Below, in pieces: positions 3,915-34,792 of a stretch of 64,000 nucleotides of DNA (positions within the stretch are counted from its first letter, which is position 1; every line of letters starts with the position of its first letter). Under the pieces are notes generated by a model, which saw only the letters and a program-made list of their open reading frames with translations, had not been told where the DNA came from and searched no databases. A program made the position numbers and the translations under genes. This DNA comes from Corallococcus sp. EGB (GTDB lineage: Bacteria > Myxococcota > Myxococcia > Myxococcales > Myxococcaceae): contig NZ_CP079946.1 in NCBI RefSeq assembly GCF_019968905.1, forward strand, positions 6,297,356-6,361,355, written 5' to 3'.

Positions 3915-4880
3915 CTAACCGCGCATCGCCCCCGGAGCAGTGCGTGGGGGGCCGGACAGCGATGCCTTTGACCGCCTGCCCCCGCGCAGCAGCGCCACGC
4001 CCCACAGCAGCACGGAGGCCAGGGCCGGACCTCCCGCGGACGTGCCACAGCCCGAGCCCCGCCCGTCCGCCACCAGCTTCAGGCCCGGATCCTCCGGGAT
4101 GCGGCACTGCGTGGGCGGCAGGCCGCGCGGATAGGTGGAGCAGAAGCCGGCCGCGGAGCCCGCGTCGATGACCCGCTTGGACGTCTCGCCCTGGGAAGCG
4201 GTGGCCTCCATGGTGGAGCCCGCGGAGAAGACATGGTCCAACCCGATGACGTGGCCAATCTCATGCGTCATCGTGTTCTGCACGTCCGTGGCCACGCAGT
4301 CGGTGGACGGCGTCCCGGTGCACGGCGGGCCATTCACGGTGGTGAAGAGGAAGCTGGGGCCGTAGTCCGTCTCCGCCGCGTTGAGCTCGATGTCCGAGTC
4401 CACCACGGAGCCGTCCTTGAAGCTGAACGAGGACGTGGTGAGCCCGATGGTGGCGCCCCCATGCGCCCAGCACTGGTAGACGTTGCCGCACGTCTCCTCC
4501 GCCCAGCACGCATCCTCCGGAGGGGCGACGTCCTGGCAGTTGCGCTCGCGGAAGGTGACGACGTTGTAGTTGTCGAAGGGGTGTTCCTGGTCGTAGCCGA
4601 CCTCGACGGGGAGCGTCCAATCCACGCCGCGGATGAAGCGGAAGTCGCTGCACGTGCCGGACAGCGCCCGCCAGGAGTCGAAGGCCGCCTCGATGGCGGC
4701 GACCTCCGAGTCCCCGGGCGTGCGCGTGCTGCCGGCCGCGTCCAGGTGGTAGACGTAGTCACGCCCGGGCCACACCAGGCACAGCGGCCGGCCCGGCACG
4801 AGCGTGCGCTTGTAGTCCTGCTGCGCGCCCGCCGCTCCCGCGCACAACAGCATCCCCAGGAGCAGCAGGCGACAGCTCAC
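3915..4880 (-). CDS. Exported zinc metalloprotease with MYXO-CTERM tail (copy 2)
   Basis: 321 residues from the GTG at 4880, which overlaps the preceding stop as GTGA; the longer frame upstream is not coding. A signal peptide ends near AGAAGA. The zinc site is HEIGHVIGLDH (206-216), the HExxHxxGxxH pattern of metzincins, followed by a Met-turn-like GSTMEA. Several Cys pairs suggest disulfides. The C-terminus has GCGTSAGG, a hydrophobic helix and RGGRRS, the MYXO-CTERM arrangement that directs myxobacterial proteins to the cell surface. Clearly paralogous to the next gene upstream (4877-5782), with the same order of motifs and the GETSKR segment after the zinc site. Expected to be a surface or secreted protease; the substrate is unknown. 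Confidence 0.9.
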   Translation of the reverse strand: MSCRLLLLGMLLCAGAAGAQQDYKRTLVPGRPLCLVWPGRDYVYHLDAAGSTRTPGDSEVAAIEAAFDSWRALSGTCSDFRFIRGVDWTLPVEVGYDQEHPFDNYNVVTFRERNCQDVAPPEDACWAEETCGNVYQCWAHGGATIGLTTSSFSFKDGSVVDSDIELNAAETDYGPSFLFTTVNGPPCTGTPSTDCVATDVQNTMTHEIGHVIGLDHVFSAGSTMEATASQGETSKRVIDAGSAAGFCSTYPRGLPPTQCRIPEDPGLKLVADGRGSGCGTSAGGPALASVLLWGVALLRGGRRSKASLSGPPRTAPGAMRG

Positions 4881-5782
4881 ATCACACCCCGCCGGCGGCG
4901 CGCCAGCAGCGCGGCGGCGGCCAGCAGCGGCAGCACCGTCAGGCCTCCTGCCGCGGCGCTGCAGCCACCGCTGCCACTGTCGCTCTTCCCATTGCCATTG
5001 CCGTTCCCGTTGTCCGGCACCGGGAGGCACGGCTGGCTCGCGCCGCCCTTGGGGTACACGGCGCACACGAAGCTGCGCGAGCCCGGGTCGATGGTGCGCT
5101 TGGACGTCTCGCCCGGAGGCGCGCTGGGGTTCATGGTGGAGCCCGTCGCGAGCGTGTGGTCCAGGCCGACGAAGTGGCCCACCTCGTGGGTGGCCGTGTT
5201 CTGCACGTCCGTGTCCACGCAGTCCGGCGTGGACACAATCGAGCACGCGGGGCCATTGCCGGTGGTGAAGTTGAACTGCGCGGCGTTGAAGGAGATGTCC
5301 GAGTCGTAGATGACGCCCGTGCGCTGATCATACGTGGTCAGCGTGATGGCGATGGTGCCGGCGCTGTCATCCCAGCAGTCGTACGTGTTCGCGCACGTGT
5401 CCTGGGTGAAGCAGGCGTCGTTCGCGTCCACGACGTCGCGGCAGGCGCGGCCGCGGAAGAGGATGAGGTTGATGTTGTCGCCGGAGCGGTTGTAGCCCAC
5501 CGTCCGGGAGTTCACGCGCGGGCCCTCCTTCAAGGTCAGGTTGCCGCAGTTGGCGAAGATGTCCTCCCAGCTCTGGAACGAGCGGGAGATGGCGTCGAAC
5601 TCCGTGTGGTTCGTGACCTTCGGGTTGCCCACGGTGCTCTGCTGCCAGGTGATGCTCGTCTGCGTCCAGTACAGGCACTGCGTGGACTCATCCCCCGGGA
5701 CCACGCGGCTGCGCACGTACGGCGCCGAGCTCTGCCCCATCACGGCCGCCAGCACCACCCACGACGCGAGCGCGCCCATCAC
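4877..5782 (-). CDS. Exported zinc metalloprotease with MYXO-CTERM tail (copy 1)
   Basis: 301 residues. A short signal peptide (LASWVVLAAVMG) precedes a metzincin-like catalytic domain with HEVGHFVGLDH (199-209) and the Met-turn GSTMNP. Paired Cys residues (for example CFTQDTCANTYDC) match positions in its neighbour. A spacer of repeated GN units (about 257-266) leads to GGCSAAAGG, a hydrophobic helix and RRRR, a textbook MYXO-CTERM. Start choice is between GTG 5782 (GTGA overlap with the upstream stop) and ATG 5779 (TGATG overlap); both imply coupling to the 193-residue protein. The pair looks like a tandem duplication. M10/M57-like by motif; the exact peptidase family is not certain. Confidence 0.9.
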   Translation of the reverse strand: MMGALASWVVLAAVMGQSSAPYVRSRVVPGDESTQCLYWTQTSITWQQSTVGNPKVTNHTEFDAISRSFQSWEDIFANCGNLTLKEGPRVNSRTVGYNRSGDNINLILFRGRACRDVVDANDACFTQDTCANTYDCWDDSAGTIAITLTTYDQRTGVIYDSDISFNAAQFNFTTGNGPACSIVSTPDCVDTDVQNTATHEVGHFVGLDHTLATGSTMNPSAPPGETSKRTIDPGSRSFVCAVYPKGGASQPCLPVPDNGNGNGNGKSDSGSGGCSAAAGGLTVLPLLAAAALLARRRRGVM

Positions 5783-6360
5783 TTCGCCCCCTTCTTCGCG
5801 GGCGCCGCCTGCTGCGCCTGGACCACCGCGCGCACGGTGGCCTTCAGCTCCGCCAGCGACATCGTCTGCGCGTTGGACACCGTCTCCTGGCGCGTCTTCG
5901 GATCAATCAGCACCGCGTCCCCGGTGGACGACGGCACCGCCATGGCGCTCGGGCCGGTGCGCCGCACCTCGTACTTGCCCTGCGCCATGCCGGACAGCTG
6001 GAACGCGGCCGCGCCGCGCTTCTCCAGGAAGACGACGACCTCCTCGCCCTCGGAGAAGGACGCCAGGCCGCTCACCACCTGCCCGATGTCCCCCATCCGG
6101 CCGCCCGGCTGGGTGACGAGCACCGTGCCGCCAGGCTGCCCCTTGAGGGACTCCGTCACCTGGATCTCCACGTCGGTGATGATGCGGCGCTTGTCCCCGC
6201 TCCAGCGGCTCTGCACGCGCCGGACGACCCCCTGCACCACCGTGTCGGACGTCTGCGCCATCTGCGGCACGTCCGTCCTCAACATCGTGGTGGCCCCCAC
6301 CGGCAGCCCTCCGAGCAGGGTGGCCAGCACCACCATGCGAACCGCGTGTCGAATCGACAT
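5779..6360 (-). CDS. Exported protein of unknown function heading the protease operon
   Basis: 193 residues with a signal peptide (VVLATLLGGLPVGA). The mature part contains a compact beta-rich region with a pattern seen in small envelope proteins of this group: TSDTVVQGVVRRVQSRW, then ESLKGQPGGTVLVTQPGG, then GEEVVVFLEK. It ends in a Gln/Ala/Lys-rich tail. No catalytic motif is visible. It is the first gene of a minus-strand run with overlapping stops and starts into two MYXO-CTERM proteases, so it may be a partner, inhibitor or chaperone for them; that is inference from position only. The ATG at 6360 is divergent from gltX across 88 bases. Confidence 0.75.
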   Translation of the reverse strand: MSIRHAVRMVVLATLLGGLPVGATTMLRTDVPQMAQTSDTVVQGVVRRVQSRWSGDKRRIITDVEIQVTESLKGQPGGTVLVTQPGGRMGDIGQVVSGLASFSEGEEVVVFLEKRGAAAFQLSGMAQGKYEVRRTGPSAMAVPSSTGDAVLIDPKTRQETVSNAQTMSLAELKATVRAVVQAQQAAPAKKGAK

Positions 6361-25644: not shown

Positions 25645-27177
25645 TTGAAAACGTTGCAGACGCTGGCCCTGGCGGGCCTGACAACCCTTTCCGCGCCCGC
25701 TTGGGCCGGGGACTTCGTGGACACCCGTCTGTCGTTCGTCTTCGCGGACGACAACGTGCTGGCGGGCGCGGGAGAGACCACTCCCAACAGCCCCAACGCA
25801 CGCTTTGGCGCGGGCAACCAGAACACGCAGTTCTACGACAACTTCAACACCAAGTTCTCCGGCTTCGAGACGCTGTCGAACGTCGTGCTCTACAAGCGCA
25901 TGCCGGCGTTCTTCGAGGGCCTCACCACGGAGGCGGCCCTCACGCTGCTGGTGCTGGAGCGCCCGTCCGGCGGTGTCGACATCCTCGACAACTCCAGCTA
26001 CGTGCGCCTGAACTACCAGCCGCCAAGCTGGGGAGAGAAGGAAGGCATCTCGCTCACCGGCTTCCCGGTGTCCGCGGACCGCTTCCGTCTGGGCTATGCG
26101 TACCGCATCTCCTGGGGCGGCAGCTCCATCTTCACCAATCGCGCCACCGCGGCGGGTGTGCCGGGCGCCAAGCTGCAGATCACCCGCGACCGCTGGTACG
26201 CGTACGTGGGCGGCAAGACGGCCCTGGTGCTCAACGACCTCATCCTGGAGCAGGAGACGCTCTACGGCGTGATGGCCGGCGCGGGCTGGGACATCCTGGA
26301 CACGCTGCGCGTGGAGGCCGGCGGCGGCTACTTCCAGAAGGGCATCGTCCCGGGCCTGGCGAACCAGTCCATCGAGGCGCCCGTCAACTCCTACGGCGCG
26401 TCCGCCCAGGTCGTCTACCACGTGGGCGTGCCGGTGGGCACGAGCGTGGACTTCCGGCTCTACAAGAACGACCCGGAAATCTACCAGCGCTTCTTCGCGC
26501 CGGAGCAGTACCCGGGCGGCCTGTCGTACTCCGTGTCGCTGGAGGGCAGCTACCTCTCGCAGACGCTGCAGGACCCGGACAAGTTCGGCGCGACCAAGTA
26601 CCAGGGGGCGACGGCGCTCGCCTTCCAGGGCCGCGCGAAGTGGAACCGCTTCCGCTTCAACGCGCTGGCGCTCGTGCGCAGCCTGTCCTTCATCCAGTTC
26701 GACGTGCCGGGCTTCCCGCCGTTCCAGGACTTCCCCACGGGCACCGTGCTGAAGCCCGAGGTCTTCGGCGCGCTGGGTGTGGACTACAACATCGCGGGCC
26801 TGCACCTGACGCCGGGCTTCATCTTCGGCGCGCAGCAGCCGGCGTCCTTCCGCAGCCCGGTGCCGCTCATCGGCGGCAGCAACCCGCCCCCCGCCCTCAC
26901 GGGCACGCGCACGGTGGTGGTGCGTGACGCCAACCAGCTGAGCATCCTGCCCAGCACCTGCGGCGGCTCTGGAGCGTGCGAGGCGCAGCTCATCTGGTCC
27001 GCCAAGGCCACCTTCCGGTGGGACCTGTCGGAGACGGTCGCGGCGGTGGGCGAGGTCTACTACACGTACGACACCAACCGGACCACGTTCGAGGACGACG
27101 TGACGGGCATCGCGCAGCCGAACTTCGAGAAGCCGCACGCGCTGGGCTTCAACACGCTGCTGCAGGCGCGCTTCTAG
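25645..27177 (+). CDS. Outer-membrane beta-barrel protein
   Basis: 510 residues from a TTG start, preceded by GGAGGG at four bases. A signal peptide ends SAPAWAGD. The mature chain alternates amphipathic strands (FRLGYAYRISWGG, WYAYVGGKTALVL, LRVEAGGGYFQKG, ATFRWDLSETVAAVGEVYYTY) and ends LLQARF, with the C-terminal aromatic typical of barrels folded by the Bam machinery. Probably a pore or a partner of the two lipoproteins upstream. Third gene of the operon that starts at 21173; the 93-base gap before it contains two stem-loops. The substrate, if any, is unknown. Confidence 0.85.
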   Translation: MKTLQTLALAGLTTLSAPAWAGDFVDTRLSFVFADDNVLAGAGETTPNSPNARFGAGNQNTQFYDNFNTKFSGFETLSNVVLYKRMPAFFEGLTTEAALTLLVLERPSGGVDILDNSSYVRLNYQPPSWGEKEGISLTGFPVSADRFRLGYAYRISWGGSSIFTNRATAAGVPGAKLQITRDRWYAYVGGKTALVLNDLILEQETLYGVMAGAGWDILDTLRVEAGGGYFQKGIVPGLANQSIEAPVNSYGASAQVVYHVGVPVGTSVDFRLYKNDPEIYQRFFAPEQYPGGLSYSVSLEGSYLSQTLQDPDKFGATKYQGATALAFQGRAKWNRFRFNALALVRSLSFIQFDVPGFPPFQDFPTGTVLKPEVFGALGVDYNIAGLHLTPGFIFGAQQPASFRSPVPLIGGSNPPPALTGTRTVVVRDANQLSILPSTCGGSGACEAQLIWSAKATFRWDLSETVAAVGEVYYTYDTNRTTFEDDVTGIAQPNFEKPHALGFNTLLQARF

Positions 27178-27257: not shown

Positions 27258-29096
27258 CTAGAAGGCGGACGTCATCCGCACCACCTCGTCGAAGGCGGTG
27301 AGGCCCTGCGCCAGCTTGCGCACGGCGGCCTCGCGCAGGGTGCGCATGCCGCCGCGGCGGGCGGCCTGCACCAGGTGCTCGTAGGGCGCCTCGCGGGCGA
27401 TGAGCTCACGCACCTCGCGGGAGGTGGAGACGATCTCGAAGACGCCGGTGCGGCCGGAGTAGCCGGTACCCCGGCAGCGCACGCACCCCGCGCCATTGGA
27501 CAGCTTCACACCGCCGGGCAACAGCGGCAGCGGCGCCTCCAGGGCCAGGAGCTCGTCCGGCGTGAGCACCGCCTCCTCCGCGCAGTGCGCGCAGACGCGG
27601 CGCAGGAGGCGCTGGGCCATGACGCCCAGGAGGCTCTGCGCCAGGAGGAAGGCCGGCACGCCCAGGTCCTTCATGCGTGCCACCGCGCCCAGCGCGTCGT
27701 TGGTGTGCAGCGTGGAGAGCACCAGGTGGCCGGTGAGCGCGGCCTGGATGGCGTTCTCCGCCGTCTCCGCGTCGCGGATCTCACCCACCATGATGACGTC
27801 CGGGTCCTGCCGCAGGATGTGGCGCAGCGCCCCCGCGAAATCCAGGCCCACCTTGGGCTGCACCTGGACCTGGTTGAAGGTGTCCCACACCATTTCGATG
27901 GGGTCTTCAATCGTGGTGACGTTGACGTCCGGCCCCGCCACCGCCTTGAGCGCGGAGTAGAGCGTCGTCGTCTTGCCGCTGCCCGTGGGGCCCGTCACCA
28001 GGATGAGTCCGTGGGGTTGGTCAATCCACGACTCGAAGTGGTGCTTCTCGTCCGGCTCGAAGCCCAGCTGGGCGATGTCCTGCACCAGCGTCTCCGGGTC
28101 GAAGATGCGGATGACGACCTTCTCGCCGAAGGCGGTGGGCAGCGTGGAGACGCGGAGCTCCACCTCGCGGCCGTCGCGCTCCGTCTTGATGCGGCCGTCC
28201 TGGGGGCGGCGCTTCTCCGAGATGTCGATGCGCGACAGCATCTTCACGCGCGACACGATGGGCGGGTGCACCTGCGCGGGCAGCGAGTACACCGGGTGCA
28301 GCACGCCGTCGATGCGCAGCCGCACCACGGCGGTGGCCCGCTTGGGTTCGATGTGGATGTCCGACGCGCGGTTGTCGAACGCGTAGCGCAGGAGGTAGTC
28401 CACCGCCTGAACCACCGGCCGGTCCGACGCCTCCAGCTCCTGGGTGCCGCTGAGCGACACCAGCTGTTCGAAGTTGGCGATCTGCCCGTTCGCGTCGCTG
28501 AAGTCGTCCGCGGCCTTGGCCAGCGTCTTCTTGAAGCCGTAGATGTCCGCGATGGAGCGCAGGATGTCCGTCTTCGCGGACAGCACGGGCTCCACCGGCA
28601 CGCCGGTGAGCCGGAAGAAGGACTCGAAGAGCTCGTGGTCGAAGGGGTTGGCCACCGCGACGCGCAGCCGCCCCTGTTCGGTGCGCTCCAGGGGCAGGAG
28701 CACGTGCTTCTGCGCGTAGGGCCGGGACACCGTGCGGGTGGCCAGCGCCATGTCCATCTTCAGCGGGTCCAGCTTCCGGTAGGGCAGCCCCGCGGCGCGC
28801 GCGGCCGCCTCCGTGACGCGGTCCTCGTCCAGCACGCCCCGCCCACCCGGCGCGGGAATCTGGAAGGCCGCCACCAGCTCCACGGGCGACACGTCGTAGC
28901 GGGCCGCGTCCTTGCCCGTGCCGCCCTGCGCCTTGAGGACGCGGGCGCGCGCGGCGGCCTCTCGCGCCAGCACCTCCTGCGCCTGCTGTGGGGTCAGCAG
29001 GCGCTGCGCCACCAGGGCCTCCAGCAGGAAGCCCAGCGTGAAGTCGGTGGCGCTGCGCGAAGGGGCGCCGCTTCCGGGGGGAGCCGCCTGTGTCAA
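27258..29096 (-). CDS. GspE/PilB-family secretion or pilus assembly ATPase
   Basis: 612 residues. The N-terminal region (to about 200) resembles the GspE/PilB N-domain with GLPYRKLDPLKMD and RTVSRPYA. The ATPase domain has Walker A GPTGSGKTT (K375), an Asp box near IEDPIE, Walker B DPDVIMVGEIRD and the His box STLHTNDA. Two CxxC pairs (CAHC and CVRC) form the zinc knob typical of GspE and PilB. Such hexameric ATPases drive type II secretion or type IV pilus assembly. The TTG start is supported by AGGAGG six bases upstream and by its TTGA overlap with the upstream MYXO-CTERM gene. No other gsp or pil gene lies in the window, so this is an orphan copy. Confidence 0.92.
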   Translation of the reverse strand: MTQAAPPGSGAPSRSATDFTLGFLLEALVAQRLLTPQQAQEVLAREAAARARVLKAQGGTGKDAARYDVSPVELVAAFQIPAPGGRGVLDEDRVTEAAARAAGLPYRKLDPLKMDMALATRTVSRPYAQKHVLLPLERTEQGRLRVAVANPFDHELFESFFRLTGVPVEPVLSAKTDILRSIADIYGFKKTLAKAADDFSDANGQIANFEQLVSLSGTQELEASDRPVVQAVDYLLRYAFDNRASDIHIEPKRATAVVRLRIDGVLHPVYSLPAQVHPPIVSRVKMLSRIDISEKRRPQDGRIKTERDGREVELRVSTLPTAFGEKVVIRIFDPETLVQDIAQLGFEPDEKHHFESWIDQPHGLILVTGPTGSGKTTTLYSALKAVAGPDVNVTTIEDPIEMVWDTFNQVQVQPKVGLDFAGALRHILRQDPDVIMVGEIRDAETAENAIQAALTGHLVLSTLHTNDALGAVARMKDLGVPAFLLAQSLLGVMAQRLLRRVCAHCAEEAVLTPDELLALEAPLPLLPGGVKLSNGAGCVRCRGTGYSGRTGVFEIVSTSREVRELIAREAPYEHLVQAARRGGMRTLREAAVRKLAQGLTAFDEVVRMTSAF

Positions 29097-30853
29097 CCGT
29101 TCCTCCTTCTGCGAGTGGCCATGAACAACACCGCGAGCCCCACCAGGAATGCCGCGGAGCTGGGCGCGCTCTGGCAGCCGCAGCCGCCGGGGTCGTTCGT
29201 CGAGTCACCCGTGCCGCCATCCACCGGCGGGGGCGGCGGCGTCCCGCCGTCGCTGCACAGGGTGCAGGTGCCGCCGTCCGTCTGCGTGTAGGGGGAGTAG
29301 CACTGGCCGCCGACGCCGCAGAACAGGCCGTTGGGGCAGTCCTGGTTGGAGCGGCAGGGGGCGATGCAGCTGCTCCCTTCCGAGAACGGCACGCACTGGA
29401 GCGGCGAGGCGCAGGTGTTGGCCGCGCAGTCCTTGAAGCAGAAGCGGTCCTCGCCGGTGCCCGCCGGGCGGCAGGTGCTGCCAGGAGCGCACGTGCAGGT
29501 GGACACCGAGCAGGGCTGCGAGCAGACGCCCTGTGGGTTGCCGTTGAGCTTCAGGCACTGCTGATTGGTGCCGCACTCCGAATCCTGGGAGCACGGGTCG
29601 CCCTCGACACGCGGGCCCGTCTTCTGCTGGACGCAGGTGTGGTCGCACGAGCTGCAGGCGTAGTTGCTGCCGCAGTCGTTGTTGGTGGCGCAGTCCGCGA
29701 CGCACACGGTGGCGCCGGTGCCGGGCAGCGTGTTGCAGGTATAGCCCTCGCGACAGTCGCCCTTGCCCGGGCGGCAGTTCTTCAGACAGCGCTGGCCCAC
29801 GGAGCCCACGGTGGCGCACGTGGAGCCGGTGGGGCAGTCCGCGTTGGAGATGCAGGACTCCGTGCAGTAGCCGCCCTTCCACGCCGGGAAGGCGGGGGTC
29901 TTGTCCGCGTCCGTGAGGCAGCGCGAGTCCGCCGCGCCGCACGTGGAGGCACTGGTGCAGGGGTTGCCCACCTTGGTGCCCGTGCCCACCGCCTCCGGCA
30001 GACAGGCGTACTGGGAGCCGGAGACGAGCGTGGACGCGCGGCACTGGTAGGGGTCCGGGCAGGCCCCGGGGGTCCCGGACGGGCACGCCTTGGAGCAGAG
30101 CTTCAGCGCCTTGCCGCTGGTGGTGGACTGGGTGGTGACACAGGTGAGCCCCGCGCCGCACGCGGTGGTGTCGCACGGCGAGCCCACCGCGCCCGTCTGC
30201 GGGTAGCGCTGGCAGATGGCGCCCCGGTCATAGGACGACAGGGTGCGCCGCGGCACGCCCGGATCCAACGCGAAGTACATCACCGCGTCCGGGAACTCGT
30301 ACGTGCTGCCCAGGCCCAGACAGTGGCCCACCTCGCGCATCACCGCCGTCTGGATGTCCACGAAGCCCGAGGGCGTGGACTCGAGCGTGGTGAACCTGTG
30401 GCTCACGGCGTCCAGGAAGATGTCGCACTGGTAGACGAGGCCGCCGTGGGTCAGCGGCACCGCGGTCGCCACGTTCGCGCCGAAGTTGAGGACGTCCTTG
30501 TATTCGGTGCTGTTCGGGTCGGTGACGAAGATGGCGGCGACGCTGAAGCCGTCCAGCCGGTCGTTCACGTCCGGGATGGGGACGGTGGTGGAGCGGCCCT
30601 TGTACGTGAAGGCGGGCCAGGCGCAGTCCACGTCCTGCCAGGCCTGGAAGGCCTTCTTCACCGCGTCCTCCACCCGCGACAACTCATTGCCCGCGGGCTC
30701 GTTGTTGCGCGCGTCCACGTAGTACGGGAAGGGGTCCTGGCTGTTGTTGAGCACCCAGTGATCCAGGAACTTGTAGCCATCCTGGGCGTGCGCCGTCGCG
30801 GCCAGCGCCAGCAGCCCCAGGAGGAAGACACACCGCTGCGACCCACGAATCAT
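29093..30853 (-). CDS. Cys-rich surface protein with degenerate metalloprotease site and MYXO-CTERM
   Basis: 586 residues from ATG 30853 (GAGG nine bases upstream). A signal peptide ends ATAHAQ. The N-terminal 200 residues look like the metzincin fold of the proteases at 3915-5782, but the zinc helix reads REVGHCLGLGS (173-183): the first His is Arg and the third is Ser, while E174, H177 and a Met-turn (AVMYF) remain. A long region (about 210-540) of repeated 6-Cys units (PCDTTACGAGLTC and similar) follows, then a Pro/Gly spacer, GGCGCQSAPSS, a hydrophobic helix and RRRR, the MYXO-CTERM. Probably a non-catalytic surface binding protein. Its stop overlaps the start of the GspE/PilB-type ATPase. 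Confidence 0.88.
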   Translation of the reverse strand: MIRGSQRCVFLLGLLALAATAHAQDGYKFLDHWVLNNSQDPFPYYVDARNNEPAGNELSRVEDAVKKAFQAWQDVDCAWPAFTYKGRSTTVPIPDVNDRLDGFSVAAIFVTDPNSTEYKDVLNFGANVATAVPLTHGGLVYQCDIFLDAVSHRFTTLESTPSGFVDIQTAVMREVGHCLGLGSTYEFPDAVMYFALDPGVPRRTLSSYDRGAICQRYPQTGAVGSPCDTTACGAGLTCVTTQSTTSGKALKLCSKACPSGTPGACPDPYQCRASTLVSGSQYACLPEAVGTGTKVGNPCTSASTCGAADSRCLTDADKTPAFPAWKGGYCTESCISNADCPTGSTCATVGSVGQRCLKNCRPGKGDCREGYTCNTLPGTGATVCVADCATNNDCGSNYACSSCDHTCVQQKTGPRVEGDPCSQDSECGTNQQCLKLNGNPQGVCSQPCSVSTCTCAPGSTCRPAGTGEDRFCFKDCAANTCASPLQCVPFSEGSSCIAPCRSNQDCPNGLFCGVGGQCYSPYTQTDGGTCTLCSDGGTPPPPPVDGGTGDSTNDPGGCGCQSAPSSAAFLVGLAVLFMATRRRRNG

Positions 30854-30925
30854 CACCCGCACCTCTTCGCGTCACGTCCGCACGGGAGCGCCTGCCTGGC
30901 GCCGGGACGTCACCGGGCGGGCAGT

Positions 30926-31687
30926 CTATCCGTGAATGGCGCGAACGGTGGCCTCCACCAGCGCTTCGGGTGTGGGTCGCTCCGCGACGGAGGCCACGGG
31001 GATGCCCAGCTGCGTCAGCGCCGTCGCCGTGGTGGGGCCAATGGCCACCACCTTCGCGGACGCCAGCGGCTCGCGGCCCACGCCCTCCACGAAGGCCTCC
31101 GCGGTGCGCGGCGAGGCGAAGAGCACCACCTGGGGCGGGGACGCGGCCAGGCCGGCCAGCGCCTCCGGTTCGACGGCGGCCGGAGCGCTGCGGTAGGCCG
31201 TCACGCGCGTGACGCGCACGCCCAGGTCGCGCAGGCCGTCCTCCAGCTCCCGCCGCCCCTCCTCCGCCGCGGGCAGGAGCACGTCGTCGTCCGGGCCCAG
31301 CACGTCCTTCAGCGCGGTGAAGAGCGCGGCGCCGGTGCCCTCGTCGGGCTCGGCCTCCACCTTCAGGCCACAGCCCTCCACCGCCCTCGCGGTGCGCGGC
31401 CCCACGGCGGCCAGCTTCACGCGGGACAGCCGGTCCAACGTGCCCGCGAGCCGCAGCGCCTCCACGAAGGCCTCCACGGCGGAGGGGCTCGCGAACACCA
31501 CCCAGTGGTAGCGCTGCACGTGCTCGGCGGCGGACGCGAGCGGACGCGGATCCTCCGGCGGGAGCAGCTCCAACAGCGGGAGGCTGAGGACATCCGCGCC
31601 CTCGTCCTCCAGGAGGAAGCACAGCTCCTCGGCCCGCTCACGGGGGCGCGTCACCAAGATTCGGATGCCATCCAGTCGCCGGTCCAC
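30926..31687 (-). CDS. hemD: Uroporphyrinogen-III synthase
   Basis: 253 residues from GTG 31687. The enzyme closes hydroxymethylbilane with inversion of ring D to give uroporphyrinogen III. The two-domain pattern of this divergent family is visible: ILVTRPRERAEEL at the start, WVVFASPSAVEAF, VGPRTARAVE, LLPAAEEGRRELEDGL, VVLFASPRTAEAFVEG and AIGPTTATALTQLG. Length is normal. Assignment is strengthened by its place directly after hemC, 11 bases away. The open frame reaches far beyond 31687 but that part is antisense-like Arg/Gly-rich sequence. Confidence 0.9.
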   Translation of the reverse strand: MDRRLDGIRILVTRPRERAEELCFLLEDEGADVLSLPLLELLPPEDPRPLASAAEHVQRYHWVVFASPSAVEAFVEALRLAGTLDRLSRVKLAAVGPRTARAVEGCGLKVEAEPDEGTGAALFTALKDVLGPDDDVLLPAAEEGRRELEDGLRDLGVRVTRVTAYRSAPAAVEPEALAGLAASPPQVVLFASPRTAEAFVEGVGREPLASAKVVAIGPTTATALTQLGIPVASVAERPTPEALVEATVRAIHG

Positions 31688-31698
31688 GGGCCGGCACT

Positions 31699-32640
31699 CT
31701 AGGCGCGGGACGCGCCTTCGCGGCGGCCGAAATCGCGCAGGATGTCCCCTGCCCCGCGCGACAGGAGCTCGTCCGCGAGCGCCTCGCCCAGCCGCTCCGC
31801 CTCCGGTACGGGGCCTCGCACCTCGCCCCGCACCACCCGCGAACCATCCGGCCGGCCCACCAGGCCGCGCAGGTACACCTGGCCGCCCGCCACCGTGGCG
31901 TGGCCGGCGAGCGGCACGGTGCAGCCGCCCTCCAGCTTCGCCAGGAAGGCACGCTCGGCCCGCACCGCGTTGCGCGTGGCGAGGTCCTCCAGCGGGGCGA
32001 GCAGCGCGCGCACGTCCGCGTCCGCCTCGCGGCACTGGATGGCCAGCACGCCCTGCCCCACCGCCGGCAGGCTGTCCTCCACCGGCACCACCTGGGTGAT
32101 GTGGTGGTCCAGGCCCAGGCGCTTGAGCCCCGCCGCCGCGAGCATGGCGCCCGCGAGCTTCAGCTCGCGCGTCCTCTGCAGCCGCGTCTGCACGTTGCCG
32201 CGCACGGAGACGATCTCCAGGTCCGGGCGGCGCGCGCGCAGGATGCAGCTGCGCCGGAGCGAGGACGTGCCCACCTTCGCGCCCGGGGGCAGCATCGCCA
32301 GCGTGTGCCCCTCCGGGCTGCAGAACGCGTCGCGCGGATCCTCGCGCGCGGGCACCGCCGCCAGGATGAGCCCCTCCGGGAACACCGACGTCATGTCCTT
32401 CAGGCTGTGCACCGCCACGTCCGCGCGGCCGTCGAGCAGCGCCTGCTCGATCTCCTTCACGAACAGGCCCTTGCCCCCCACCGCGGACAGCGGCGCGGAG
32501 AGGAAGCGGTCGCCCTCGGTGGTCATCTTCACCAGGGTGACCTCCAGGCCGGGGTTGTGCCGGGTGAGGAGCGAGCCCACGTGATTCGCCTGCCACAGCG
32601 CCAGCGGGCTCTCCCGCGTCGCGATACGCACCGTCTTCAT
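31699..32640 (-). CDS. hemC: Hydroxymethylbilane synthase (porphobilinogen deaminase)
   Basis: 313 residues, normal length. It joins four porphobilinogens on a dipyrromethane cofactor attached to Cys240 in [11 protein letters not shown]. The catalytic Asp region [11 protein letters not shown] and the Arg-rich [15 protein letters not shown] that binds substrate carboxylates are intact. The ATG overlaps the hemA stop by four bases (ATGA), indicating coupled translation. Confidence 0.97.
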
Positions 32641-33977
32641 CGCCGGCTCCCGGTGGCCACCACGGTGTTGCGTCCCTCCGCCGCGGGGGCGGCGGTCTCC
32701 TCCGGCGCGATGGCGGCGGCCTCCGCCTCCGACAGGCCGAACAGCTCCGCGGCGGCGCCCGCCAGCCGGTTGCCTTCACCCTGGGGCCCCACGGCGCGCA
32801 GGCGCGCGGTGGGCTCATGCAGCAGCTTGTTCACGATGGCGCGTCCCATGGCCTCGATGCTCTTCTTCTGCTTGTCGGTGAGCCCGTCGCCCAGGCCCAG
32901 CAGCGTGCGCTCCACCTCCGCGCGGGCGATGGCCTCCGCGCGCTGACGCAGCCGCGCCAGCACCGGCATGCCGTCGCGCAGCGCGCGCTCCCGGGCGAAG
33001 CGCGCCACCTCCTGCGCCACCAGCCCGCCCGCCTTGTGCGCCTCCTCCGCGCGCGCGGCGGCGTTGTCCGCGACGAACTTCTGGATGTCGTCCACGTCGT
33101 ACGCGTGCACCCAGTCCAGCGTGCCCACCGCCGGGTCGATGTCTCGCGGCACCGCCAGGTCCACCATGAACAGCGGCCGCCCCTTGCGGGCCTTGCCCAG
33201 CGCGCCCACGTTGTCGCGCGTGAAGAGCGGGACCGGCGACGCGGTGCTCGTCACCACCACGTCCGCGGCGGCCAGCCACGTGAACAGCTCCTCGAAGGGC
33301 TTCGCGACGCCGCCCACCTCCGCCACCAGCGCCTCCGCGCGCGCGAGCGTGCGGTTGGTGACGAGCAGCTTGCCCGCCCCCGCGTTCTTCAGGTGCCGCG
33401 CCGCCAGCTCGCCCATCTCGCCCGCGCCCACCACCAGCACGGTCTTGTCCTTGAGCCCGTCGAACACCTTGCTGGCCAGTTGCACGGCCGCGGACGCCAT
33501 GGACGTCGCCGCGCGCCCCACCGCCGTCTCCGTGCGCACGCGCTTGGCGCAGCCGAACGCCGCCGCGCACGCGCGCGTCAGCTCCCCGCGCACCGCGCCC
33601 GCGCCCTGGCCCCGCTCGAAGGCGTCCTTCACCTGGCCCAGGATCTGCGCCTCGCCCAGCACCATGGAGTCCAGGCTGGACGCCACGCGGAACAGGTGCA
33701 CGAGCGCCGCCTCGCCCTGGTGCTCATACAGGTGCTCCAGCGCCTCCGCGCCGCCCAGGGAGTGCAGCGTCTCCCGCACGCGCTCGCGCGCCTGCTCCAT
33801 GTTGGGAGCCGCCAGGTACACCTCCACGCGGTTGCACGTGGACACCCAGAGCGCCTCCACGGGCGCCTGCGCCAGCCGCTGCAGCACTTCCGTCTGCCGG
33901 GCTTCGGGCAATGCCAGCCGCTCGCGGACGCCCAGGGGAGCGGTGCGGTGCGACACGCCAATGCAGATGAATTCCAT
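32637..33977 (-). CDS. hemA: Glutamyl-tRNA reductase
   Basis: 446 residues. It reduces glutamyl-tRNA to glutamate-1-semialdehyde with NADPH, the first step of C5 haem synthesis. Active-site Cys48 lies in [23 protein letters not shown] and the Rossmann motif [15 protein letters not shown] are clear. The C-terminal dimerisation helix is complete and ends with an extra acidic/Ala-rich tail of about 40 residues. ATG 33977 begins two bases after the stop of the upstream HemX/CcsA-like gene. Confidence 0.97.
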
Positions 33978-33979
33978 GA

Positions 33980-34792
33980 CTACGGCATCCCCGGGCCAGC
34001 GGCGGAAAGGTCGTAGGACGACAGGAAGGAGACCAGCACCAGGCAGAAGCCGGCCATGGTGAGCAGCGCCACCCGCCGGCCTCTCCAGCCCGCGAAGATG
34101 CGCGCGTTGACGAGCGCGGCGAACATGCCCCACGCGACGAAGGTCGCCACGTGCTTGGCTTCCAGGGCCCAGGAGAGCCCCCGCAGCGTGGTGGTGAAGA
34201 GCGCGCCCGTCGCCAGCGTGAGCGACAGCGCGATGAAGCCCCACAGGACGAGCCGGCGGTTGAGCGTGTCCAGGAACTCCAGCGACGGCAGCCGCGAGAA
34301 GAGCAGCCCGAAGTGCTTGGACTTCACCTCGCGCTCCATCAGCAGGTACATGACGCCCACCCCGGCCGCCACGCCCAAGGCCGTCATCCCCAGGAGCGCG
34401 ATGATGACGTGCACCGGCAACAGCGGCTGGCGGACCGCGTCCGGCAGCGGCGTGGACCCGCCGTGCAACAACATGCCGATGAGCAGCACCGCCACCGCCA
34501 GCGGCGTGAGGAACGCGCCGATGACGGGCTTGCGGTAGCGCACGTCCAGCGCCAGGAACAGCGCCAGCAGCAGGAAGGCGAAGGTGGACATGCCCTGCGC
34601 GGGGCCCACCAGCCGGCCCCCCTGCGCCCCCAGCATCTCGACGAGGGCGACGCAATGCATCAACAGCCCGGTCCCCACCAGCACCCGGCCGACGACGGCG
34701 AGCACCTGGGATTGGCGGACCAGGAAGGCGAGGTAGACGAGCGCGGCCAGGCCGTAGGCGTGGCAGGCGAGCGAGACGAGCGTATGGCTCAT
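33980..34792 (-). CDS. CcsA/HemX-family membrane protein
   Basis: 270 residues with about eight hydrophobic helices. The central LPVHVIIALLGMTALGVAAGVGVMYLLMERE contains the conserved His and helix spacing of the cytochrome c assembly (CcsA/CcmC/HemX) family; a second conserved part is EAKHVATFVAWGMFAAL with WAL before it. Family members handle haem in the membrane; HemX in other bacteria is encoded just before hemA and limits GluTR amount. The position here, immediately before hemA, fits that role, but a cytochrome c maturation role is equally possible. Confidence 0.85.
   Translation of the reverse strand: MSHTLVSLACHAYGLAALVYLAFLVRQSQVLAVVGRVLVGTGLLMHCVALVEMLGAQGGRLVGPAQGMSTFAFLLLALFLALDVRYRKPVIGAFLTPLAVAVLLIGMLLHGGSTPLPDAVRQPLLPVHVIIALLGMTALGVAAGVGVMYLLMEREVKSKHFGLLFSRLPSLEFLDTLNRRLVLWGFIALSLTLATGALFTTTLRGLSWALEAKHVATFVAWGMFAALVNARIFAGWRGRRVALLTMAGFCLVLVSFLSSYDLSAAGPGMP

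Follow-up and report, generated by a model that had tools for sequence, protein, structure and literature searches.

An orphan TfpB-type ATPase gene coupled to a MYXO-CTERM surface protein gene as a candidate accessory type IVa pilus motor

What does a secretion-type ATPase do when its gene begins inside the stop codon of a surface protein gene? The question is raised by a gene pair in a 64,000-nucleotide stretch of the genome of Corallococcus sp. EGB (contig NZ_CP079946.1, positions 6,297,356 to 6,361,355 of the forward strand; hereafter, the window), in which a MYXO-CTERM surface protein and an ATPase of the GspE/PilB family are encoded on the minus strand. A preliminary description of this DNA had suggested a dedicated export or display unit, in which the ATPase would supply the energy to deliver the cargo encoded with it. 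It appears from the present analysis that the genes are indeed coupled and that the ATPase is probably an accessory motor for type IVa pilus extension, of the type named TfpB in Acinetobacter. TfpB is itself an already known kind of ATPase; the point of interest is the possible place of a further member of its clade among the motors of a group much studied for its pili.

The ATPase gene (27258..29096, minus strand; 612 amino acids, TTG start) matches Pfam T2SSE with 433 bits and also MshEN, and the surface protein gene (29093..30862, minus strand; 589 amino acids) encodes a signal peptide, a degenerate matrixin domain, Cys-rich repeats, and a MYXO-CTERM tag. The two share the nucleotides TTGA (29093..29096, minus strand), the TTG of the ATPase lying within the GGTTGA end of the surface gene. 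Read on the minus strand, this 3′ end is CGC AGA AGG AGG AAC GGT TGA, with AGGAGG at 29107-29102 and a spacing of 5 nucleotides to the ATPase TTG. Both reading frames, their overlap, the AGGAGG site, and the two family assignments agree with the preliminary description. The last codons of the surface gene contain the ribosome-binding site of the ATPase, which links translation of the one to that of the other. A TTG or GTG start that overlaps the stop codon (TTGA/GTGA), together with an AGGAGG-type site, is kept in all 14 genus relatives compared (L014-L027), so that the junction is beyond chance and the translational coupling proposed earlier is real as architecture; the stop/start overlap would also be expected to influence expression.

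The Shine-Dalgarno site of the ATPase, AGAAGGAGG (29102..29110, minus strand), serves at the same time as the AGA AGG AGG (Arg-Arg-Arg) codons of the MYXO-CTERM tail, a double use that the preliminary description missed. Across 26 homologues, AGA and AGG make up 34 of the 112 tail arginines (30%) and 31 of 563 in the remainder of the same genes, and they account for 47 of 1448 Arg codons (3%) in the genes of the window; the codon rows share ancestry, and P values for such comparisons are a guide only. One other MYXO-CTERM tail in the window, a control with n = 1, uses CGC CGC CGG CGG for its arginines. The arginine codons of a sorting tag thus double as the ribosome-binding site of the next gene and, as described below, outlast the protein.

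With regard to the ATPase, the Walker A motif GPTGSGKT (residues 369-376; 27969..27992, minus strand) is conserved across the whole aligned subfamily, and the Asp box, Walker B, His box, and Cys4 zinc motif are intact as well. A domain search placed MshEN at residues 103-190 (28527..28790, minus strand). The organism's own PilB has two cyclic di-GMP (c-di-GMP) motifs, starting with RLG and RIG, and these starts were not seen in the orphan-subfamily members compared. Among NCBIfam models, the ATPase scores highest with TfpB (639.4 bits), followed by PilB (542) and GspE (524), and all three scores are under the curated cut-offs (850 for NF053534, 675.65 for TIGR02538, and 630.25 for TIGR02533, respectively). 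On the TfpB model, Acinetobacter TfpB reaches 1065 bits and a Mitsuaria homologue 855. In an IQ-TREE phylogeny of 54 sequences, 23 Myxococcota orphans group with these two proteins with support of 100/99, PilB and GspE being excluded, and the same TfpB clade was recovered (SH-like approximate likelihood ratio test, 99) when the sample was widened to include Thermodesulfobacteriota, Nitrospirota, and Pseudomonadota. Eight positions that vary little or not at all among the orphans (D110, L112, F240, H267, E313, M402, L478, and R542) are common to TfpB and differ in PilB and GspE.

The likeness to Acinetobacter TfpB (NF053534; PMC8213720) extends to 41% over residues 50-608, nearly the whole length, and to the position of the gene away from pilC; the Myxococcota proteins differ in forming a separate branch and in having different neighbours. 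PilB shares with the window ATPase the core fold, the Walker, Asp, His, and Cys4 motifs, and an MshEN-type N-terminus, and the best structural matches of an AlphaFold model (predicted template modelling score 0.52) are PilB structures. Nevertheless, a housekeeping PilB is ruled out by score and tree position, the organism's own PilB reaching 798 bits. GspE, which has the core ATPase in common, is ruled out in the same way, the own GspE reaching 771 bits. By its sequence, the window ATPase is therefore best assigned to a Myxococcota branch of the TfpB-type clade, as a putative free-standing motor with intact catalytic motifs.

The genome holds 12 T2SSE-family ATPases. The own GspE (TIGR02533) is encoded in a type II secretion system (T2SS) operon, next to gspF and with a secretin upstream, while the gene for the own PilB (TIGR02538) adjoins pilT and pilC. 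The neighbourhood of the window ATPase showed no gene for a platform, pilin, or secretin, and the ATPase gene, unlike pilB, is unlinked to pilC and pilT. The only GspF and PilC of the genome sit in the T2SS and type IVa pilus loci, and other T2SSF matches comprise a pair of single-domain hits near 5763 kb. A platform protein dedicated to the window ATPase is missing, and the word orphan in the preliminary description was apt. A second orphan PilB/GspE-like ATPase, on a long tree branch, is encoded near 7618 kb of the same genome (L090:9472-11052), between two-component signalling genes.

Which machine, then, would such a motor serve? The subfamily (presence threshold, E <= 1e-150) occurs as a single copy in each of 147 of 195 Myxococcota genomes, spanning 59 of 90 genera. 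In genomes at least 90% complete, tallied by hand, it was found in 117 of 137 with PilB vs 3 of 12 without (Fisher P 2e-5, shared ancestry uncorrected). Of the three PilB-less exceptions, one carries pilT and pilC next to a pilB with a frameshift, and in another the ATPase match is incomplete and lies at the end of a contig. Almost every genome of the phylum has GspD-type secretins and a T2SS, and where a T2SS occurs without PilB the orphan ATPase is mostly missing too. Co-occurrence therefore favours, but does not prove, the type IVa pilus over the T2SS as the machine of the ATPase.

It was reported that TfpB of A. baylyi, also an orphan gene product, is needed for efficient pilus extension, and a role in initiation was proposed (PMC8213720). 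By analogy, the window ATPase would most likely dock on PilC, the platform protein of the type IVa pilus encoded elsewhere in the genome, and assist or prime extension alongside PilB. The gene may have acquired its position in Myxococcaceae, 3′ of hemD and of a gene for a surface metalloprotease, and with it a Shine-Dalgarno site embedded in the Arg-rich sorting-tag codons, so that ribosomes ending translation of the surface protein could start on the motor. To our knowledge, A. baylyi TfpB is the sole experimentally tested member of the clade.

Several points weigh against this interpretation. The ATPase is not a TfpB equivalog, because its score falls below the cut-off of NF053534, and the co-occurrence with PilB is uncorrected for shared ancestry; in addition, families f6 and f7 have PilB but not this ATPase. 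PilB is required for pili in M. xanthus according to a review (PMC11656802), so the window ATPase cannot replace it, which speaks against a simple spare motor. No experiment on this ATPase gene was found.

PilB is the extension ATPase named in Myxococcus pilus work, and a TfpB-type ATPase conserved in most Myxococcota is a candidate second one. A more specific proposal, which we offer only tentatively, is that this second motor, which would lack the PilB c-di-GMP motifs, supports pili at low c-di-GMP, that the amount of it made depends on ribosomes that complete the surface protein, and that the tie between ribosome-binding site and tag leaves fossil tag codons behind.

The surface protein contains 51 Cys in all, with a long Cys-rich region, and its MYXO-CTERM sorting domain (TIGR03901.2; residues 558-587, 29102..29191, minus strand) scores 27 bits against a cut-off of 20, with signature Cys, transmembrane helix, and Arg-rich tail (GCGC...RRRRNG). 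Its weak matrixin match was missed by the preliminary description. In an AlphaFold2 model (mean predicted local distance difference test score 77), this part matches matrix metalloproteinase catalytic domains by Foldseek (E ~2e-5; template modelling score normalised to target ~0.7), and the matrixin fold is predicted to be kept. By comparison with homologues, the zinc site REVGHCLGLGS (30305..30337, minus strand) is a degenerate form of the ancestral HExGHCxGxxH. Outgroup members have the full motif (e.g., HEVGHCLGLNH), g27, g28, and most g37 members have HExxHxxGxxD or N, and some g37 members and g25 have RExGHCLG; Myxococcus members carry REVGHCLGLGS or close variants, one of them RGVGQCLGLGS, and g8 has QAVGFCQG. 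The zinc site is thus lost stepwise among the homologues. In Myxococcus, an active surface protease is ruled out by the loss of the HExxHxxGxxH ligands, and the protein is best explained, from these motifs, as a dead protease retained as a Cys-rich surface protein. Decay can go further: in G105 (L305:2929-3921) the whole matrixin domain is gone, yet the signal peptide, the Cys-rich part, and MYXO-CTERM are still encoded in an open reading frame.

Two known families are close to this protein. The myxosortase-dependent metalloproteases of NF041905 (MXAN_2677/2678) also combine a matrixin-type domain with MYXO-CTERM, but the surface protein scores 39.5 vs 250 bits on that model, has the extra Cys-rich region, and in Myxococcus has lost the zinc ligands. 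Asp-zincins (PMC3890501) use the HExxHxxGxxD form found in some relatives (g27, g28, and g37); here, however, this form looks like one step of decay, and the window copy lacks the first ligand too.

Outside Myxococcus, the surface gene is in most lineages closely preceded by a gene for a small secreted protein of about 165 amino acids, termed c11. Where c11 is present, HExxH is kept in 22 of 22 rows and all three histidines in 16 of 22; where it is absent, the figures are 12 of 22 and 0 of 22 (counts excluding L156, which begins at a contig end, G105, and G151). A c11 homologue also occurs in the window at 5779-6360 (37% over 125 amino acids), directly before two MYXO-CTERM-type matrixin genes (3915-5782, minus strand) that overlap each other, have intact HExxH motifs, and have no ATPase beside them. 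The older unit therefore appears, on this comparison, to have been c11 plus matrixin rather than matrixin plus ATPase.

How firmly, then, are the surface protein and the ATPase linked? In 96 Myxococcaceae genomes, tallied by hand, the surface gene is present in 67, and in 63 of these the ATPase gene follows it immediately, so the adjacency is family-wide. The ATPase is present in 89 genomes, 26 of which lack the surface gene. The adjacency is hence one-sided, the ATPase persisting without its neighbour, and the two are not kept together in both directions, as a dedicated exporter and its cargo would be. Some genomes without the surface gene retain just its last 15-30 codons, including the ribosome-binding site, between hemD and the ATPase (L113:6072-6161, L114:5785-5874, L109, and L110). 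The g26 fossil comprises about 30 codons with a complete tag (GPGCGCLGAAVNAPGLPGSLAVLLVAARRCFCPRP, then stop) and the g8 fossil about 15, both with AAGGAG just before the ATPase. The ratios of nonsynonymous to synonymous substitution rates (dN/dS, NG86) are 0.14-0.26 for the constrained ATPase vs 0.5-0.67 for the fast-evolving surface protein; because codon bias at high GC raises NG86 values, we rely on the difference between the genes alone.

A gene overlap need not mean a functional partnership. That the products are unrelated, and that the junction was selected only for translation of the ATPase, is a view for which we find the case evenly balanced; it concerns only the link between the genes and is compatible with a TfpB-type pilus motor. 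The fossil tags, which retain nothing but the Shine-Dalgarno end of a lost gene, and the difference in constraint are in its favour, whereas the surface gene occurs without an adjoining ATPase in only 4 of the 67 Myxococcaceae genomes carrying it, which is unlike a free gene.

Outside Myxococcaceae, the ATPase usually has other neighbours, the commonest being a CDC48-like AAA+ gene just 3′, directly downstream in f5, f9, f10, f11, f14, f18, and f19. A PilZ-Hsp70 gene adjoins the ATPase in f9 and is nearby in f10. These associations would suit an ATPase that is a regulator instead of a pilus motor, perhaps acting with such proteins. Yet every ATPase motif is intact, and the AAA+ family was not detected in the genus Myxococcus, so we regard a regulatory role as unlikely. 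The AAA+ protein (L084:11100-12584, L082:7825-9297, and other loci) has an N-terminal region of about 240 amino acids with no Pfam match, and the Hsp70 directly upstream of the ATPase in f9 (L082:11199-13076, L083:8820-10307) has a PilZ-like (TIGR02266) N-terminus. At four loci of non-Myxococcota homologues, the neighbours either matched housekeeping families or had no Pfam match, and pilus genes were not among them.

It is also quite improbable that the ATPase is an alternative T2SS motor, docking on GspF and altering the general export of numerous proteins, those with MYXO-CTERM included. GspE and PilB ATPases do share a fold and a platform family, and nearly all members of the phylum have a T2SS, but the window ATPase groups with TfpB rather than GspE and is mostly missing from T2SS genomes without PilB.

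MYXO-CTERM proteins are reported to reach the surface through myxosortase and the general T2SS (PMC11980579), and hence no extra ATPase is needed; the present surface protein would presumably follow this route, by way of its signal peptide, and not one through the window ATPase. The dedicated export or display unit, with delivery of the co-encoded protein via the T2SS or a T2SS-like machine, can draw on the overlap, the strong Shine-Dalgarno site, and the family-wide adjacency, but it is very improbable and was rejected on the one-sided linkage, the TfpB clade, and the missing platform, to which are added the phylum-wide occurrence of the ATPase with other neighbours, a T2SS with its own GspE, homologous matrixins in the window with no adjoining ATPase, the older c11 partner, and the T2SS genomes that lack both PilB and the ATPase.

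Directly upstream of the pair are genes called as hemD, hemC, hemA, and a ccsA-like gene (30926..34792, minus strand). The last is also identified by Pfam; the hem names are putative, taken from recognition of the sequences. The pair forms the 3′ end of this same-strand ccsA-hemA-hemC-hemD run, which is conserved in Myxococcaceae and had gone unnoticed in the preliminary description. On the other side, convergent with the ATPase, a 510-amino-acid protein (25645-27177, plus strand) is conserved in Myxococcaceae without a Pfam match, and it looks like an outer-membrane barrel.

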